Positions 395 to 10,066 of a stretch of DNA of 35,706 nt are shown here, in pieces (the first letter of the stretch is position 1; each line of letters begins with the position of its first letter). The stretch covers positions 1 through 35,706 of the forward strand of contig CANGHE010000004.1 in the NCBI GenBank assembly GCA_947453545.1, given 5' to 3'. The position numbers were made by a program, and so were the translations under genes. The stretch is from Flavobacteriia bacterium. Its GTDB lineage: Bacteria > Bacteroidota > Bacteroidia > Flavobacteriales_D > Crocinitomicaceae. The notes beneath the pieces are model-generated. The model was not told where the DNA came from. It was given only the letters and a program-made list of their open reading frames with translations, and searched no databases.

Positions 395-1378
395 TTAAAT
401 TCTTGATTTAAATTCATAAAACCTATCTCTGATTTTATGAATCATCCAAAATATTTTTCCGTGTAAAGAGAACCCAAACAATTTCTTTAACTCATCTGGA
501 CTAATTTTATGTTTTAAACCAACATAATAATTTCCAATTTCTTGATAATTTTTTGAATTATTTATATCTGTATATAGACAAGCAAATTTAGCATTCTTTA
601 ATTTTTCTAAGTCATTAGCTGTCATTCCTGTTTCAGGAAATATTCTCTCATTTACCTCATGATCAAGAGACTTCAAATGAATAGGAAAATTTAAAATCGC
701 TACTTTAACCCCTAAATAAAGAGCATACATAACATGAGAACCAAAGTCATTTGTTATCATATATTCGAACTGTGAAAAAAGTACTACCTGTCTCTTGTAT
801 GCATTTTTATCATTGTTTTTTGCTCCTTCAACAAAGGAAATACCTCTCTCTTTTAACTCATTTACCCAAAAGTTATTTTTAACATCATTTGAGTGTAAAC
901 ATGCTAAAATATTGTTGGATTTAAAATTATTCTTTGCTAAAATTTCATCTAAAAATTCACCTCTTTTATCAACATTATACGTTTCACATCCAACCAAAGA
1001 ATGCGATGGCATAATTAATAATGAGTCTTTTATTCGTTCAACCTTCTGAATTGGAACATATATAATGGGTAACCCTATACAATAAGTCTTTGTATATCCA
1101 TTCTTAACTAAAACTTCTTTCTGTTCATTATCAGTTACAAAATAGATTTTATTTTTATCAAAAAGATTATTGGTTAAAATAGATAATGTATTGTAACCTG
1201 GGGGAAATGCGCCATGATACCACGAAAAATCTTTAAATTTTGTATTCGGTTTTAGCCCACAATACTCCTTGATTATTTCTAAAGCACCATAATAATCTCT
1301 CCAATAATTATATGCATGAGCTTCCTCAAATTCAAACGGCTCAAAAGGTGGTAAATTTAGTTTTTCAATAATATTCAT
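395..1378 (-). CDS. Uncharacterised protein at the end of the pse operon; possible GT-B-like glycosyltransferase (candidate nonulosonate transferase)
   Basis: Intact 327-aa ORF adjacent to pseI; motifs such as LLIMPSHSLVG and FEYMITNDFGSHVMYALYLGVKVAI resemble the C-terminal half of GT-B enzymes; no confident family assignment. Confidence 0.5.
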   Translation of the reverse strand: MNIIEKLNLPPFEPFEFEEAHAYNYWRDYYGALEIIKEYCGLKPNTKFKDFSWYHGAFPPGYNTLSILTNNLFDKNKIYFVTDNEQKEVLVKNGYTKTYCIGLPIIYVPIQKVERIKDSLLIMPSHSLVGCETYNVDKRGEFLDEILAKNNFKSNNILACLHSNDVKNNFWVNELKERGISFVEGAKNNDKNAYKRQVVLFSQFEYMITNDFGSHVMYALYLGVKVAILNFPIHLKSLDHEVNERIFPETGMTANDLEKLKNAKFACLYTDINNSKNYQEIGNYYVGLKHKISPDELKKLFGFSLHGKIFWMIHKIRDRFYEFKSRI

Positions 1379-2424
1379 TACTCAAAGTCATTTAACGTAA
1401 TTCGATCTCCAACTTGCATTGTTCGTAACGATTTTTTTCCTAATATTTCGTTTAAATATTTTGGATGTAAGCTGTAACCTGGGCGAACGGAACGAATATT
1501 GTTTTTCGTAATAATATCGCCTTTATTGATTATATCTGACACGTATAGAGAACGTGAAAATTTTCTACTATTTTCTTGTTTTTTTGTTATCGTAAAATCT
1601 ACTTTTCCTATTGATTTTTCCGCTATACGAACCTGACTAACCATCTCTTTAAACTCACCTTCATTCATCGAAAAACTTGCATCTGGGCCTCCAATATTTC
1701 TATCCAAAATAAAATGTTTTTCAATCACTTTTGCACCTAATGAAGTTGCAACAAGTGGTGCTAAGCTACCCATAGTATGGTCTGACAAACCTGAGTATAC
1801 ATTGAATTGCTTACTATATTCTTCAATCATTGTTAAATTTGCTTCTTCAATAGGTGCAGGATAACTTGAAGTACATTTTAACAAAATAATTTGCTCATTT
1901 CCGACACTTTTACATGCTTCAATTGCCAATTGAATATCTTCTAAAGTGGCAATTCCTGTAGATATAATTATTGGCTTTTGCTTAGATGCAACGTATTCAA
2001 TTAATGGGATGTCAGTAATCTCAAATGAGGCAATTTTGTACGCAGGAACATTTAGTGTTTCTAAAAAATCAACGGATGAAATATCAAAAGGGGAAGAAAA
2101 ACATTCTAATCCCTCTTCTTTTGCTAATTTCATTATTTCATCATGCCATTCCCATGGAGTATATGCTTCTTTATAAAGATTATACAAAGTTTGACCTGAC
2201 CAAATTGTATCGTTTATTTGAAAATCTTCTGAGTTAACATTTAATGTTATTGTGTCTGCTGTATATGTTTGTAATTTAATACAATTAGCTCCAGCACGTT
2301 TAGCCGCACGAACAGTTTCTAGGGCAATTTCGAGTCTGCCATTGTGATTCGCTGACAATTCAGCAATTATAAATACGGGCGATTCATTATTTATATTGAA
2401 ATTTCCTATTTTCATGTCTGTCAT
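1378..2424 (-). CDS. pseI: Pseudaminic acid synthase (NeuB family)
   Basis: PVFIIAELSANHNG, GANCIKLQTYTADTITL, KIASFEITDIPLI, LSDHTMGSLAPLVATSLGAKVIEKHFILDR and a C-terminal SAF-like domain. Confidence 0.93.
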   Translation of the reverse strand: MTDMKIGNFNINNESPVFIIAELSANHNGRLEIALETVRAAKRAGANCIKLQTYTADTITLNVNSEDFQINDTIWSGQTLYNLYKEAYTPWEWHDEIMKLAKEEGLECFSSPFDISSVDFLETLNVPAYKIASFEITDIPLIEYVASKQKPIIISTGIATLEDIQLAIEACKSVGNEQIILLKCTSSYPAPIEEANLTMIEEYSKQFNVYSGLSDHTMGSLAPLVATSLGAKVIEKHFILDRNIGGPDASFSMNEGEFKEMVSQVRIAEKSIGKVDFTITKKQENSRKFSRSLYVSDIINKGDIITKNNIRSVRPGYSLHPKYLNEILGKKSLRTMQVGDRITLNDFE

Positions 2425-3422
2425 AAAATAAATTTTAATCCTTCTTCTAAATCACTATCGACTTCTTTATAACCAACATTTTTAAACGTTTTAATAGAAG
2501 CCATGTTATTCGGTTTTATATATGCAACGATGCTGTAATCTTTGTTGATCCCTTTATAATATTGGGATCCAATACTAAGAATTTGTTTAGCAAATCCCTT
2601 TCCACGTTGATTTTGGTCTACAGAAATACTTATTACAGCTTCATTCTCATTTTTTTGTTGTAAGCGAACCATGCCAAGCGGTGTATATATTTGACTGTAA
2701 AAGATAAACATTTCTGTTGAATCACTTCTTAGACAGTTATTAAACCAATTACAATGATCATTAAAATCAATAGGTTCGGAATTAAAAGAATTCTCTCTGA
2801 CTAATTTATCATTTGCCCATTCATATACAAGATTTACATCTTTTGGATTTACAGCTCTAAAAAATAAATTTGGATTTGATTTAGTATGTATCAACACATC
2901 AATCAGTTCACCGTTGAATTCAATTTCTTTTGAAAGTCGTTCCGTAAGGCTAAAACCACTTCTCTCAAGCACAGGATATAAATATGGCCTTAAATCATAT
3001 GCATATGTGAAAATCTTAGAAAAATTTAACTCTTCGAATGCAACAGCCTCAATTAACTTTAAAAACACCGTCCAATTTTTAGAAAAATTATCTTTTTCTA
3101 ATTCGGTTAACATAATAAAAGAAATCTCTGCTGATTTTTCTTTCCAGTTAATATGCACAAGTCCGCCGTAACCAACAAACTCACCATCTTTTAAAAAACT
3201 AAAAAGTAATTGATTAGGTTTATCAATTAAAAATAGTTCGCTAATTGTATTTTTAAAATAGTTTTCTTGATCTAATTCCGTTAAAGGTTGTTGTTGACGT
3301 AAATGAAACATTTGTTCATTTCGTGTTTTCATGATTACCCACTTATCCTGATCACGAATTGGGGTTATGAGATAATTATTAATAGAAAACTCCTGATTTA
3401 AAAGATTTTTATATCGTCTCAT
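2421..3422 (-). CDS. Tandem GNAT-domain acetyltransferase (two GNAT-like halves); PseH-type N-acetyltransferase candidate
   Basis: N-terminal half LITPIRDQDKWVIMKTRNEQMFHLRQQQPLTELDQENYF...FVGYGGLVHINWKEKSAEISFIM; C-terminal half FFRAVNPKDVNLVYEWANDKLVRENSFNSEPIDFNDHCNWF...AVISISVDQNQRGKGFAKQIL, which looks like the GNAT domain fused to PseG in some genomes. Confidence 0.75.
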   Translation of the reverse strand: MRRYKNLLNQEFSINNYLITPIRDQDKWVIMKTRNEQMFHLRQQQPLTELDQENYFKNTISELFLIDKPNQLLFSFLKDGEFVGYGGLVHINWKEKSAEISFIMLTELEKDNFSKNWTVFLKLIEAVAFEELNFSKIFTYAYDLRPYLYPVLERSGFSLTERLSKEIEFNGELIDVLIHTKSNPNLFFRAVNPKDVNLVYEWANDKLVRENSFNSEPIDFNDHCNWFNNCLRSDSTEMFIFYSQIYTPLGMVRLQQKNENEAVISISVDQNQRGKGFAKQILSIGSQYYKGINKDYSIVAYIKPNNMASIKTFKNVGYKEVDSDLEEGLKFIL

Positions 3423-4107
3423 CCATAAAAAGTTTAAATTTTATCTCTGCCAACTTCCAATCTTCTAGATTATCAATATCTTGCGCATGTAATTCTGATA
3501 CTTCTATCGCGACAGTGTTTTCTGTACGTAATGACTTGGTTTTGTATAATGTTTCCACACCAAATGAATAAAACATTCCTGCATCATGAAAACTTTTATC
3601 AAAAAATTGTGTTCCAAGTGTGTTTTTCACATCAAACTGAGGTGAAATTTTATTATCAACACCTAGTGAAAATGCTCTTTGAATAGGATGACTATATGCA
3701 ATTACTGGAAAAACAACATCAGCATTTAATTCATTAAGTCTTCTATATGATTCTTTAAGTAATGTTGGATTAACAAATGGACTACAAGGATAAATACATG
3801 TTGCTTGTTCAAAATTAACTCCGTTTTTCTTATACCAGTCTAGCACTTCAAAAATCACTTCAATCGTCGATGATTGGTCTTGACTATTTAAGGAACTTCT
3901 CATAAAAGGAACTTTAGCACCATAGCGCAAAGCTATTTCAGCAATTTCATTATCATCCGTTGAAACCATCACCTCATCAAACAATCCGCTATTTATTGCA
4001 GTAAGAATTGAATATGAAATAATAGGTTTCCCTAAAAAATCTTTACTGTTTTTTCGCGGAATTCGTTTACTTCCTCCTCTTGCAGGAATTATTGCAATAC
4101 CTTTCAT
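3409..4107 (-). CDS. pseF: Pseudaminic acid cytidylyltransferase
   Basis: MKGIAIIPARGGSKRIPRKNSKDFLGKPIISYSI, VMVSTDDNEIAEIA, CIYPCSPFV; in pse context. Confidence 0.92.
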   Translation of the reverse strand: MKGIAIIPARGGSKRIPRKNSKDFLGKPIISYSILTAINSGLFDEVMVSTDDNEIAEIALRYGAKVPFMRSSLNSQDQSSTIEVIFEVLDWYKKNGVNFEQATCIYPCSPFVNPTLLKESYRRLNELNADVVFPVIAYSHPIQRAFSLGVDNKISPQFDVKNTLGTQFFDKSFHDAGMFYSFGVETLYKTKSLRTENTVAIEVSELHAQDIDNLEDWKLAEIKFKLFMDETI

Positions 4108-4853
4108 TAAATTCTTACTGGTATATTAATCTCTAGTAGAGTCTTCTTAATATCTAAAGGAGTATATTGAGTAAAGTGAAAAATACTAGCCGCTCCAACC
4201 GCCTTAATTTTCGTTTGTAAGAAAAGTTCTTTAAAATGATTTAAATCTCCTCCACCTCCAATAGCAACAACTGGAATTGTAGTAAGTGAATCAACCCTGT
4301 TAATCAACTCTATATCAAACCCATTCATCATACCATCTTGATCAATACTATTTACTAATAACTCACCAACTTGACAATCATTCATACTTTCAATAAAATC
4401 CTCTAACTTGATCAAATATGAATTAGAATGCTTTATGTAGTACGTCTCTTTCTTTTTATAAGCGTCTACTGAAATGGAGATACATTGAGAGCCAAAATAA
4501 TGTACAGCTTCTTTGATAAAATCAATGTTCGTTAACGCCTTTGATTTTATTATAACTTTATCCGCTCCTATTTTTAGTAAATCGTTTATATCCTCGATTG
4601 ACTTTATTCCTCCACCAATTGATACAGGCATAAAACATTCGTCCATCACTTTTTTTACCAAACTCAAATTAATCTTTCGATTTTGTGAACTTGCAAAAAT
4701 GTCTAAAAAAACCAATTCATCTACCCCTCTACTATTATACACTTTAGCCGCCTGAGTCGGATTCCCAACCATTCGTGGATTTCCAAACTGCTTGGTTTTT
4801 ACAAGTCCGAAACCATTAAATGTTAAAATTGGAATTACTCTTACTTTTAGCAT
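4107..4853 (-). CDS. hisF: HisF-like imidazole glycerol phosphate synthase cyclase-subunit paralog (amidotransferase-associated)
   Basis: (beta-alpha)8 HisF signature: VDELVFLDI, PVSIGGGIKSIEDI, GADKVIIKSKAL, ISVDA, LLVNSIDQDGMMNGFD, IPVVAIGGGG; the catalytic-Asp segment CLDVKDG is replaced by ILTFNGF. Confidence 0.9.
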   Translation of the reverse strand: MLKVRVIPILTFNGFGLVKTKQFGNPRMVGNPTQAAKVYNSRGVDELVFLDIFASSQNRKINLSLVKKVMDECFMPVSIGGGIKSIEDINDLLKIGADKVIIKSKALTNIDFIKEAVHYFGSQCISISVDAYKKKETYYIKHSNSYLIKLEDFIESMNDCQVGELLVNSIDQDGMMNGFDIELINRVDSLTTIPVVAIGGGGDLNHFKELFLQTKIKAVGAASIFHFTQYTPLDIKKTLLEINIPVRI

Positions 4854-4854
4854 A

Positions 4855-5454
4855 TTACCCCAAATAATTCTTTAATAATTTCAACCCTGAATCTTGGCTT
4901 TTTTCTGGATGAAACTGTGTGGTAAAAATATTTTCAAAACGCATAGACGCAGTGATTTCCTGGCCATAATCAACGGTTGCTACAATCGACTCTTTATTTT
5001 CAGGAACTACTTTATAACTGTGAATAAAGTAATAATCTAGCGACTCAATATCATTAAAAAGTACTTGATCTTTTTTTATTTCAATATTATTCCAACCTAA
5101 GTGTGGAATCGATAAATTTTCTGGTGTCATTTTTACAACCTCACCCTTTATCCAGCCTAACCCTTTACATTCGTTTGGTTCAAAACCTTTCTCCATCACC
5201 AATTGCATTCCTAAGCATACACCTAAAAACTTCTTTTTTTTATTTAAAATTTGATCATTTAGTAGGTCAATTAATTGTAAATTCTTTAAATTTTCCATCC
5301 CTTGCTCAAAAGAACCTACACCTGGCAATATGATTGCATCAGACTCATCTATTATTGAATGATCACGTGTGATTTTGCTTTCAATTTTTAAAAAACGTAA
5401 AGCTTTCTCCATAGAGGCGACGTTTCCCATTCCATAATCAATGATAGCAACCAT
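4855..5454 (-). CDS. hisH: HisH-like glutamine amidotransferase subunit (glutaminase)
   Basis: VAIIDYGMGNVASMEKAL, ILPGVGSFEQGM, FLGVCLGMQLVME, YYFIHSYKV, TTQFHPEKS. ATG at 5454 preferred over the track start at 5469. Confidence 0.92.
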   Translation of the reverse strand: MVAIIDYGMGNVASMEKALRFLKIESKITRDHSIIDESDAIILPGVGSFEQGMENLKNLQLIDLLNDQILNKKKKFLGVCLGMQLVMEKGFEPNECKGLGWIKGEVVKMTPENLSIPHLGWNNIEIKKDQVLFNDIESLDYYFIHSYKVVPENKESIVATVDYGQEITASMRFENIFTTQFHPEKSQDSGLKLLKNYLG

Positions 5455-5455
5455 A

Positions 5456-6607
5456 TTATCTAAACCCAAAAATTCTAACTAAATTACCTTCTTCGTCTTT
5501 CAAAAAGGATCCATCTTCTGCTTGCTGAAATAACATTGAATTTGTAAATGAATCCAATATTTGGTCAATTTCTTCTTTAGTCATCCCTGAATATTTAATG
5601 AACGCATTTACCGATTCATTTGGATAACGACCTTCATATTTCTGTAATAATTTTAGTCCTTCATCTCTAGTCAATCTATTATTTCGAATATCTATACATG
5701 CATGATCTGTTGCTCTACCAAATCCATATTTAATATATTTAAGATAATCATGTAGTCCATGCATTTTCTCGTCAAGATTCTCATAATTTGTATATGTACC
5801 TTCAACAGGTCCATCTTCTTTTACAGAAAATCCGTGTTGTTTAACTATTTCCAACTGTTTACGAGCATCCCAAAAGAAATAATGTCCTAAAAACAATCCT
5901 ACAACTCCTACTCTTTCAATATCTTCGTCTGAAGGGTAAAAATAAGGTGATAAGTCTTTTTCAGTTAATCCATCTACTCCTACCATGTCTTGAATTCTAT
6001 TTCCTAATAGCCCACCAAACTCTTCCATCCATCTTCTATTCAGAATATTATTTTCCAAAGACTCAACAGGTCCACCGTATTCAAGCTGTGGATTTTCACC
6101 CCAAATTATCAATGGAATATTAAACTTCACCGCAATATTAATTGGTATAGTAAAAATCCCTAAATGATTTGGCCACATTTCATCTCCTACTCGCTTAAAT
6201 CCTTCAATAACCATGGACTTATATGCATTGTAATTCTTTTTAAAGTAGATGACATCTACTCCCATTTTAGAAATATTATCGATATTTTGTCTACCAAGTT
6301 CAGTCAAGTTAGTAGTTTCAAAACAAACACATAAAGGATTCATTTTACAGATTTCTTTCATAAAATATACTTGGTATGTGCTGTCTTTTCCGCCACTAAC
6401 AGGTATTAAACAATCATATCCTATTTCATTCTCTTTTTTCTTGTACTTATCTATGATTGTATAGAAGTCTTTTTCTCTTTGAACCCAGTCAATATTATCA
6501 TTTTTATTCTTCGCACCCTGACACGCTGAACATACACCTTCTTCGTTAAAAAACAAATCTGGTTTGGTTTCAGGAAATAAACAAGTGTTACAATAACGTA
6601 ATTCCAT
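5456..6607 (-). CDS. N-acetyl sugar amidotransferase (PseA/WbpG-like)
   Basis: N-terminal CxxC pairs RYCNTCLFPETKP...CSAC; PP-loop PVSGGKDSTYQ; IIWGENPQLEYGG; immediately upstream of hisH-hisF. Confidence 0.9.
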   Translation of the reverse strand: MELRYCNTCLFPETKPDLFFNEEGVCSACQGAKNKNDNIDWVQREKDFYTIIDKYKKKENEIGYDCLIPVSGGKDSTYQVYFMKEICKMNPLCVCFETTNLTELGRQNIDNISKMGVDVIYFKKNYNAYKSMVIEGFKRVGDEMWPNHLGIFTIPINIAVKFNIPLIIWGENPQLEYGGPVESLENNILNRRWMEEFGGLLGNRIQDMVGVDGLTEKDLSPYFYPSDEDIERVGVVGLFLGHYFFWDARKQLEIVKQHGFSVKEDGPVEGTYTNYENLDEKMHGLHDYLKYIKYGFGRATDHACIDIRNNRLTRDEGLKLLQKYEGRYPNESVNAFIKYSGMTKEEIDQILDSFTNSMLFQQAEDGSFLKDEEGNLVRIFGFR

Positions 6608-6610
6608 AAA

Positions 6611-7789
6611 TTAACGATAAAAAGTTTTTACTTTGTCAATTACATATTCCTGTTGCTCGCTAGTTAAGGCAGGAAAAATAGGTAAACTGATACAATTTTT
6701 ATAATAATTCTCTGCATAATTAAAATCCCCTTCTTTCCATCCCAACTCTTGATAGTAAGGCATTAAATGACAAGGAAAATAGTGGATCTGTGCAAAAATT
6801 TGATTCTCTCTTAAATAATTATAAAGTCCTAATCTATTTTCAACTTCTATAATGTACAAGTGATATGCATGACTTCTGTCAACGAAAGGTTTTTGATAAA
6901 TAAATTTGCAATCATTGAAGGCCTCATTATATTTTTTTACAATTTCGTTTCTTCTTTCTAAACCAAATTCAGCTCTTTTTAATTGACTAAATCCAAGTGC
7001 GGCCTGAAAATCTGTTATACGGTAATTATACCCCAACTCCTGCATTTCCATATACCACGATGGATAAGAGGTTGTCCCACCTGCCAATTGAATTGAATTT
7101 TTAAAATCAGAAGTTTCTCTTGTTATTCCATGAGTTCTCAATTTTACAATTTTAGAAAATAGGTCTTCATTTCTCGTTGTAATCATCCCACCTTCACCTG
7201 TTGCTATATGCTTCACTGGATGGAATGAAAAAACTGTGATATCGGAATAAATAGAACTTCCTGACTTAATTTCTCTACTATTAGAATCAAGAAAATATGC
7301 CCCAGGGGCATGACAAGCATCTTCAATAATCCAAAGATTATATTCTTTTGCTAATAAACTAAATTTTTCAGTATCGATTGATTTCCCTGCAAAATCAACT
7401 AAAACCAACCCTTTTACACTTCCATTAGGTTGAGATTCTAGAATTGCTTTTACACTGTTAAAATCGATTAAATATGTTTCAGGGTCAATATCTGCAAATA
7501 AAATTTCTGCACCACAATATCGAATACAATTCGCTGAAGCCGCAAACGTAATTGGTGTAGTAATTACCTTATCACCAGAATTTACACCTAAAGCTAATGC
7601 AGCTAAATGTAAAGCAGCTGTTCCATTTGATACAGCAACTGAAAAGGGACAATCCACATATTTCGAGAACTCATCTTCAAACAATTTAACTGCAGGTCCT
7701 TGAGTCAAGTAATCTGATTGAAGTACTTCAACGACTGCATCTATGTCGGACTGAGTTATTTCTTGTCTACCGTATGGAATTGCTTTCAT
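6611..7789 (-). CDS. pseC: UDP-4-amino-4,6-dideoxy-N-acetyl-beta-L-altrosamine transaminase (DegT/DnrJ/EryC1 family)
   Basis: PYGRQEITQSDIDAVVEVLQSDYLTQGP, VAVSNGTAALHLAALALGV, EDACHAPGA, FSFHPVKHIATGEGGMITT. Confidence 0.93.
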   Translation of the reverse strand: MKAIPYGRQEITQSDIDAVVEVLQSDYLTQGPAVKLFEDEFSKYVDCPFSVAVSNGTAALHLAALALGVNSGDKVITTPITFAASANCIRYCGAEILFADIDPETYLIDFNSVKAILESQPNGSVKGLVLVDFAGKSIDTEKFSLLAKEYNLWIIEDACHAPGAYFLDSNSREIKSGSSIYSDITVFSFHPVKHIATGEGGMITTRNEDLFSKIVKLRTHGITRETSDFKNSIQLAGGTTSYPSWYMEMQELGYNYRITDFQAALGFSQLKRAEFGLERRNEIVKKYNEAFNDCKFIYQKPFVDRSHAYHLYIIEVENRLGLYNYLRENQIFAQIHYFPCHLMPYYQELGWKEGDFNYAENYYKNCISLPIFPALTSEQQEYVIDKVKTFYR

Positions 7790-8796
7790 TACACTTCAAA
7801 AGTTGGATCAACGTGTGTCTTTATCTGTTCTCTCAAAGATTCAATCGTCTCCCAAGATTCATTAGTACCTGAATCGTAAGAAAATCCTTCAGATACTCTT
7901 CTTGCATTAAATGCAACAATAAATTTATCTAAATCCCATTTTGTTACCTGTGGTAAAATTACATAGTATTTTCCCAAATCGAATGTATGAAAAGAGTCTG
8001 ATGAAGTAATCATTTCTTCGTGTATCTTTTCGCCCGGACGAATTCCAATTACTTTATGTTCGCAATCAGGACCAATTGCTGTCGCTAAGTCTGTAATTCT
8101 ATATGAAGGTATTTTGGGTATGAAAATTTCTCCTCCCCAAGCACATTCTAAAGCATGCAACACCATGGCTACCCCATCAGTCAATGAAATATTGAAACGT
8201 GTCATTTGAGTAGTAGTAATTGGCAAAACTCCTTCGGCACGTCGTTTCAAGAAAAAAGGAATTACAGATCCATTCGACCCCATTACATTGCCATATCGAA
8301 CAACGGAAAATTTAATGTCATGTGAACCACTAATATTATTCGCTGCCACAAACAATTTATCTGAAGTAAGTTTTGTCGCACCATATAAATTAATTGGTGC
8401 ACAAGCTTTATCTGTCGATAATGCTACCACGTGTTTTACTCCCGCTTGAATAGCCGCATGAATTACATTCTGTGCTCCACCTACATTAGTTTTTACGCAC
8501 TCATCGGGATTATATTCTGCAATATGTACATGTTTCATTGCTGCAGCATGAATCACAAAGTCAATCCCTTCGAACGCACGTACCAACCTTTCCTGATCTC
8601 TTACATCACCTATAAAAAAACGAATTTGAGGAAATTCGTGATTTGGATAATCTTGAGCCATCTGGAATTGTTTTTGCTCGTCACGAGAAAAAATAACAAT
8701 TTTTTTGACTTTCCATTTTTTTAAGATTGTAGTTGTCAACTCTTTCCCTAAAGAGCCTGTCCCTCCTGTAATTAATATAGATTTATTATCTAACAT
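7789..8796 (-). CDS. pseB: UDP-N-acetylglucosamine 4,6-dehydratase (inverting)
   Basis: MLDNKSILITGGTGSLGKELTTTIL, HAAAMKHVHIAEYNPDECVKTNV, ALSTDKACAPINLYGATKL. ATG at 8796 gives the canonical N-terminus; the track start at 8844 overlaps wzt. Confidence 0.95.
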   Translation of the reverse strand: MLDNKSILITGGTGSLGKELTTTILKKWKVKKIVIFSRDEQKQFQMAQDYPNHEFPQIRFFIGDVRDQERLVRAFEGIDFVIHAAAMKHVHIAEYNPDECVKTNVGGAQNVIHAAIQAGVKHVVALSTDKACAPINLYGATKLTSDKLFVAANNISGSHDIKFSVVRYGNVMGSNGSVIPFFLKRRAEGVLPITTTQMTRFNISLTDGVAMVLHALECAWGGEIFIPKIPSYRITDLATAIGPDCEHKVIGIRPGEKIHEEMITSSDSFHTFDLGKYYVILPQVTKWDLDKFIVAFNARRVSEGFSYDSGTNESWETIESLREQIKTHVDPTFEV

Positions 8797-10066
8797 TTTT
8801 TTTCCAATATAAAATATGACTTGTATTTGCTCTTCGATTTGCACCTCTTATTGTTTGACTGTCGATTACAGAAAACTCCAAAACATATCCTGGGCAATCA
8901 ATTGACCAAGTATTATGATTGGAATACATTGATGCAAATGAAACATACAATTTGTAATTTCCAATCGGCAAAACATATTTACTTATTGTTAATTCTACTG
9001 AATTTAAACCAATTTCAAATTTTTCAACAATATTATCTCCGAAATCTTTTGAGTCTGATTCAATAAAAACATCTTCTTCTGAATTGACTACTTGAATATA
9101 ACCATAAACTCCTGGTAATTGATTTAAATTATTTATTTCAAGAAAAATATGAATATTTTCACTTATTTCAAAAATATTTAAAAGTTCACCTCTTTCTTTG
9201 CAAACTTTTGCAGCAACAAGCTCAACCGACTTACCTTCCAAATTTTCCTTTTTGTATTCTCCAGACAAAGTCATATCCGCATTTGACTCAAGGTATATTT
9301 TCAATACCTCATCCATCGAACCTTGCGCTTCAATTTTTCCATTTTTAAGGTATATACCTTTGTCACAAAAACTACGAATCGCTGCGATATTATGGCTAAC
9401 AAAAATGACCGTTCTTCCATGAGAACTTACATCTTTCATTTTACCTAAACACTTTTTCTGAAATTCAATATCCCCAACCGCTAAAACTTCATCCACAATT
9501 AAAATTTCTGGCTCCAAATGAGCAGCAACTGCAAAAGCTAATCTCACATACATCCCTGATGAATAGCGCTTTACAGGCGTGTCAATATATCGTTCAACAC
9601 CAGCAAATTCGATGATTTCATCTAATTTTGATTCAATCTCATATTTGCTCATTCCCATTATTGCACCATTAAGAAAAATATTCTCTTTACCTGTTAACTC
9701 TGGATGAAATCCTGTTCCAACTTCTAACAATGAAGCAACTCTTCCTTTAATTCTTACCGTTCCTGAGGTAGGTGTAGTTACTCGAGATAGAATTTTAAGT
9801 AGTGTAGATTTACCTGCTCCATTATTTCCGACAATACCTACTATATCACCTTGATTTATTTCAAAATTGATATCTTTCAATGACCACGAAAAATTGGTTG
9901 TAGACTTTGTAGATCTATCATTTTCAGAGCCTTGCTCTAAATATGGATCTGTTCCACGAACAATTTTATAAAACTTTCTTTGAACGTCTTCTTTGAACGT
10001 TTTACTATTAACGACACCTAAACGATATTGCTTAGAAACATCTTCTACCTGAATTACAGCTTCCAT
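8786..10066 (-). CDS. wzt: Polysaccharide ABC transporter ATP-binding protein with C-terminal extension (Wzt)
   Basis: Walker A GIVGNNGAGKSTLL, signature YSSGMYVRLAFAVA, Walker B ILIVDEVLAVGD, H-loop IFVSHN; about 170-aa C-terminal beta-rich extension resembling Wzt_C. Confidence 0.94.
   Translation of the reverse strand: MEAVIQVEDVSKQYRLGVVNSKTFKEDVQRKFYKIVRGTDPYLEQGSENDRSTKSTTNFSWSLKDINFEINQGDIVGIVGNNGAGKSTLLKILSRVTTPTSGTVRIKGRVASLLEVGTGFHPELTGKENIFLNGAIMGMSKYEIESKLDEIIEFAGVERYIDTPVKRYSSGMYVRLAFAVAAHLEPEILIVDEVLAVGDIEFQKKCLGKMKDVSSHGRTVIFVSHNIAAIRSFCDKGIYLKNGKIEAQGSMDEVLKIYLESNADMTLSGEYKKENLEGKSVELVAAKVCKERGELLNIFEISENIHIFLEINNLNQLPGVYGYIQVVNSEEDVFIESDSKDFGDNIVEKFEIGLNSVELTISKYVLPIGNYKLYVSFASMYSNHNTWSIDCPGYVLEFSVIDSQTIRGANRRANTSHILYWKKNVR

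Follow-up and report, generated by a model that had tools for sequence, protein, structure and literature searches.

HisF of T. maritima, the barrel subunit of the HisF-HisH imidazole glycerol phosphate synthase (PDB 1thf, 1gpw), uses D11 as general acid and D130 as general base, and the G20A exchange alone is sufficient to lower its kcat about 100-fold (PMC11350729). A second kind of HisF, variously called WbuZ, HisF2 or AglZ, is encoded together with HisH2 and the amidotransferase WbuX (WbpG) in surface-glycan clusters, as in P. aeruginosa PA3150-PA3152, which carries wbpG-hisF2-hisH2 (PMC4783410). Genome annotations often take such HisF2/HisH2 copies for histidine enzymes or offer no explanation for them (e.g., PMC8305728), and a single transposon screen for surface-polysaccharide genes in Sphingomonas yielded insertions in each of WbuX, HisF2 and HisH (PMC11340318). 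For the amidotransferase, the structure of the Legionella N-acetyl sugar amidotransferase LpNASAT (PDB 8wex) revealed a PP-loop protein that binds zinc and presumably uses ATP, in a paper that makes no mention of HisF or HisH (PMC10607449). That HisF2/WbuZ proteins serve as ammonia conduits is already an accepted idea, and loss of Asp11 is the rule among them. The NCBIfam families WbuZ and AglZ/HisF2 are already named for acetamidino modification, and archaeal AglX/Y/Z mutants reportedly lost an acetamidino group.

The window analysed here, the whole stretch of 35,706 nucleotides, contains an amidotransferase-HisH-HisF trio of this type within a same-strand set of genes on the minus strand. 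The set comprises PseB, an inverting UDP-GlcNAc 4,6-dehydratase (7789-8844; TIGR03589, 516.8 bits, cut-off 407.75), and the aminotransferase PseC (6611-7789; TIGR03588, 453.4 bits, cut-off 423.5), followed by a WbuX N-acetyl sugar amidotransferase (5456-6607; TIGR03573, 378.2 bits, cut-off 203.2). The WbuX translation features a PP-loop (SGGKDS) and four cysteines (C6, C9, C26 and C29), matching the PP-loop and four-cysteine zinc site of its solved relative 8wex (E 1e-44). The gene for the glutaminase subunit HisH (4855-5469; TIGR01855, 235.9 bits, cut-off 105.4; PDB matches 4gud and 1gpw_B) shares 14 bases with the end of WbuX; in HisH, the Cys-His-Glu triad is intact and the PGVG loop is present. 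The HisF paralogue comes next (4853 to 4107, ATG start, 248 residues), and then the pseudaminic acid cytidylyltransferase PseF (3409-4107; TIGR03584, 253.8 bits, cut-off 205.7), a protein with two acetyltransferase (GNAT) domains (2421-3422; PF13420 at residues 22-177, PF13302 at 186-319) and the pseudaminic acid synthase PseI (1378-2424; TIGR03586, 497.4 bits, cut-off 340.25). The double acetyltransferase occupies the position of PseH, and its C-terminal half is PseH-like at a score below the cut-off (TIGR03585, 54.2 versus 93.1 bits); the window's pse cluster has no recognisable PseG gene. Judged by these predicted products, the locus combines a pseudaminic acid cluster with a module for amidation. 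At the cluster end, directly after PseI, lies a gene for a 327-residue protein with neither a Pfam nor an NCBIfam match (395-1378, minus strand), and an 80-residue ORF on the plus strand (90-332) resembles, by eye only, the C-terminal end of an IS3-type transposase.

The window HisF aligns to T. maritima HisF (1thf) with 94 of 245 residues identical, and repeated alignments showed no gap over approximately the first 140 residues. It retains R5, K19, E46, D98, K99 and D130, while D11 is replaced by Thr, G20 by Thr, N103 by Lys, T171 by Asn, S201 by Ile and L222 by Gly; the last five of these substitutions map to the one-time active-site end of the barrel, and the ligand positions 103/171/201/225 now read K, N, I and S. 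The first-pass annotation of this DNA had proposed Thr at the Asp11 position next to a kept Asp130 and kept ammonia-gate residues Arg5, Glu46, Lys99 and Glu167, all of which the alignment bears out, with Glu167 corresponding to Glu164 of the window HisF following a three-residue deletion after beta-strand 5. That annotation had also named, as a refutation, a structure-based alignment placing an acid at position 11. No alignment shift can do so because the earliest acidic residue of the protein is Asp45, and the AlphaFold2 model is a confident HisF fold (pLDDT 94.8, pTM 0.91) that superposes on HisF structures at TM scores of 0.84-0.91, those for 1thf, 1gpw and HisF-LUCA being 0.87-0.91 and those for T. 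maritima 0.87-0.89. The same Thr11 is present in 13 of 13 members of the clade to which the window HisF belongs, so its occurrence here is not due to chance. A frame-shifted or misaligned ordinary HisF was likewise considered and is ruled out by the lack of an acid before residue 45, the confident model and the conserved clade.

Compared with T. maritima HisF, with which it shares the fold, the HisH partner and the ammonia gate, the window HisF thus lacks Asp11 and several substrate contacts. With WbuZ/HisF2/AglZ it has in common a broken cyclase pair, a kept gate and its surroundings, namely neighbouring genes for HisH and an amidotransferase of WbuX type inside a glycan cluster that is flanked by pse genes here. 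Its two top-scoring NCBIfam families are indeed WbuZ (TIGR03572, 258.8 bits) and AglZ/HisF2 (NF038364, 235.8 bits), but both scores fall below the curated cut-offs (299.7 and 310, respectively), as does that for the hisF family model (229.2 bits, cut-off 294.55); among 396 genomes of the phylum, just 3 exceed the WbuZ cut-off. Unlike most WbuZ/HisF2 relatives, which carry Leu11, the window HisF groups with full support in a clade whose 13 members, all from Bacteroidota, share Thr11, Thr20 and Lys103. While it is therefore no formal member of WbuZ or HisF2 by the cut-offs, gene set and residue pattern suggest that it works like them.

The first-pass annotation had called for a comparison with HisF proteins encoded beside amidotransferase genes. 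From Bacteroidota, Campylobacterota, Pseudomonadota and one archaeal contig we assembled HisF homologues encoded no more than 6 kb away from a WbuX gene, and compared 181 homologues in total, comprising 104 WbuX-linked HisF, 62 housekeeping HisF and 15 HisA; the sample leans towards Bacteroidota, and counts over related sequences are not independent. Housekeeping HisF carry both Asp11 and Asp130 as well as the full gate in 62 of 62 cases. The WbuX-linked HisF possess the full gate in 104 of 104 cases and the Asp11/Asp130 pair in none. HisA operates without a glutaminase and hence provides a natural control for gate conservation: it has the Asp pair in 15 of 15 sequences and the full gate in 0 of 15, so that gate and catalytic pair separate cleanly between HisA and WbuX-linked HisF. 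Asp11 is lost in 91 of the 104 (Leu in 66, Thr in 15, Gln in 5, Ile in 3, Val and Tyr in one each); in the other 13 it is kept and Asp130 is lost instead (Glu in 11, Gln in 2). The ligand positions 103/171/201/225 read N-T-S-S in 61 of 62 housekeeping HisF versus 3 of 104 WbuX-linked HisF. The accompanying HisH proteins retain C84 in 104 of 104 cases and H178/E180 in all 103 readable rows. The loss of Asp11 noted in the first pass is thus real, but it is no peculiarity of the window HisF, being the rule among its WbuX-linked counterparts.

The 13 sequences that keep Asp11 and have Glu or Gln at position 130 (L123, L124, L126, L127, L130, L136, L182, L184, L185, L187, L189, L190 and L200; motif RLDIKG..VKG) represent a second WbuX-linked lineage, and the Asp11/Glu130 group forms a separate, fully supported clade. 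A larger tree suggested that HisF was recruited into WbuX clusters twice independently, whereas a smaller tree united both WbuX-linked groups with a support of 82. The loss of Asp11 and the loss of Asp130 must have been separate events, unless one of them was reversed.

Three genomes reached through Pseudomonadota encode HisF2 and WbuX as a single chain of approximately 680-700 residues in one open frame without stops, with the HisF domain first (L203:916-3015, L201:16121-18196 and L225:1513-3558, all on the plus strand). Their HisF domains carry Leu11 together with the gate. As the L201 and L203 fusions share 68-74% identity with the L225 copy and the linker is common to all, they do not stem from a single assembly fault; a HisH gene lies just upstream of the fusion gene in L203 and L225, and a search for the fusion on plasmids found none. 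In two further proteins (L112:3112-5145, plus strand; L217:1033-2868, minus strand), an N-terminal class II (MCGIFG) glutaminase domain (PF13522/PF13537) precedes a WbuX-type domain that scores 146 bits and so stays under the cut-off of 203; the glutaminase is apparently an alternative ammonia supply. Both architectures would fit a WbuX that needs ammonia on the spot, from HisH-HisF or from a built-in glutaminase. WbuX also occurs with an N-terminal family 4 glycosyltransferase (L113:6895-9246, minus strand; L116:9685-12042 and L117:8667-11021, plus strand), two of these fusions belonging to the window's genus and adjoining HisH-HisF, and a non-ribosomal peptide synthetase with condensation, adenylation and carrier domains (L111:3528-7565, minus strand) contains a WbuX/QueC-like PP-loop domain between adenylation and carrier.

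To rationalise these observations, we propose that the window HisF is very probably a non-cyclase conduit for ammonia from HisH to WbuX, a HisF-type beta/alpha barrel that would have lost imidazole ring closure. HisH would dock on the N-terminal face of the barrel and hydrolyse glutamine, and the released ammonia would enter past the Arg5/Glu46/Lys99/Glu164 gate and leave at the former active-site face into WbuX. Using ATP at its PP-loop, WbuX would activate an N-acetyl group, carried by either an intermediate or the product of pseudaminic acid synthesis, and swap the oxygen for NH, generating an acetamidino group. Sequence, fold, residue pattern, gene linkage, fusions and missing histidine genes (see below) are direct observations, and from them we infer that HisH, HisF and WbuX form a three-way complex, that ammonia takes this route and that the product is acetamidino-pseudaminic acid. 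Passage of ammonia from HisH to the amidotransferase, as the first-pass annotation had it, is well supported by inference, given the gate in 104 of 104 sequences, the intact HisH, the HisF-WbuX fusions and the glutaminase-fused WbuX-type proteins.

The retention of Asp130 in 91 and of Lys19 in 90 of the 104 WbuX-linked HisF despite the broken catalytic pair counts against a pure pipe, which would not need them. Together with the Thr11/Thr20/Lys103 signature in all 13 relatives of the window HisF, it raises the prospect of a new catalytic or binding job for the barrel involving Asp130 and Lys19, for instance binding of the sugar substrate, or of an intermediate of WbuX, on the face where the active site used to be. 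We regard this as rather unlikely, as that face is variable among family members (position 11 is occupied by seven different residues, position 201 by at least eight) and WbuX has its own ATP site (PMC10607449); such a job would in any case be compatible with a conduit role in the same barrel.

HisF2 could also act purely as an activator or scaffold that switches on HisH, with ammonia released to solution and taken up by WbuX without a tunnel. Isolated HisF accepts ammonium salts at basic pH (PMC11350729), making free ammonia a possible substrate. HisF and HisH are both encoded inside a distance of 6 kb for 138 of the 166 WbuX genes, but both are missing there for 19; some of these lie near contig ends and one has a built-in glutaminase. 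At times, WbuX may therefore work with free ammonia or remote partners. The gate, however, is invariant in the WbuX-linked HisF, unlike in HisA, and the HisF-WbuX fusions put the barrel right beside WbuX, which makes activation without channelling quite improbable.

Family models were used to search for histidine pathway genes in 13 genomes of the window's genus, of which six reach a completeness of 90% or more and some one of 99-100%. None of the 13 contains a hisF above the cut-off, a hisD or a hisA, the matches to the hisA model being the HisF paralogues themselves and weak ones below 35 bits; these paralogues carry Thr, Gln, Val or Ile at position 11. The hisF models do work in this group, since a housekeeping hisF is detected in several genera of the same family. 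Several further genera of the order are also without hisF. The hisA product makes the substrate of the HisF cyclase, and by gene content the genus, as represented by these 13 genomes, likely consists of histidine auxotrophs. The first-pass annotation had counted the absence of another hisF in the genome as evidence against a non-cyclase reading; that absence holds literally, as the window's assembly (74% complete) has no second hisF, but it does not refute the reading because hisA and hisD are missing too. With the pathway as a whole apparently lost, the absence favours the non-cyclase reading instead. A working, sole-copy HisF serving histidine synthesis, for which the lack of another hisF and the kept Asp130 would speak, is practically excluded by the lost Asp11 and ligand residues, the hisF model score of 229 bits (cut-off 294.55), the genus-wide lack of hisA and hisD and the position of the gene in a pseudaminic acid cluster. 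The proposal that the window HisF no longer makes imidazole glycerol phosphate is hence well supported, both by its changed catalytic and ligand residues and by a genus without hisA, hisD and housekeeping hisF.

The ammonia conduit reading thereby makes the window HisF a clean new example of a known HisF2/WbuZ kind of role, most likely feeding ammonia to a sugar-amidating enzyme. To this known picture the analysis adds the family-wide residue pattern, the second lineage and the fusions. The rule that the gate is always kept and the catalytic pair always broken, with HisA as its mirror image, allows HisF2 copies to be told apart from sequence, and the HisF-WbuX fusions offer a two-in-one chain for testing the transfer of ammonia from glutamine to sugar and for solving a structure. 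As the fusions indicate direct docking of the former active-site face on WbuX, we consider it reasonably probable that HisF is a portable ammonia conduit, in which Asp11 and Asp130 would have been lost separately and the former active-site face would be docked on WbuX, the glutaminase-fused WbuX-type proteins being an alternative solution.
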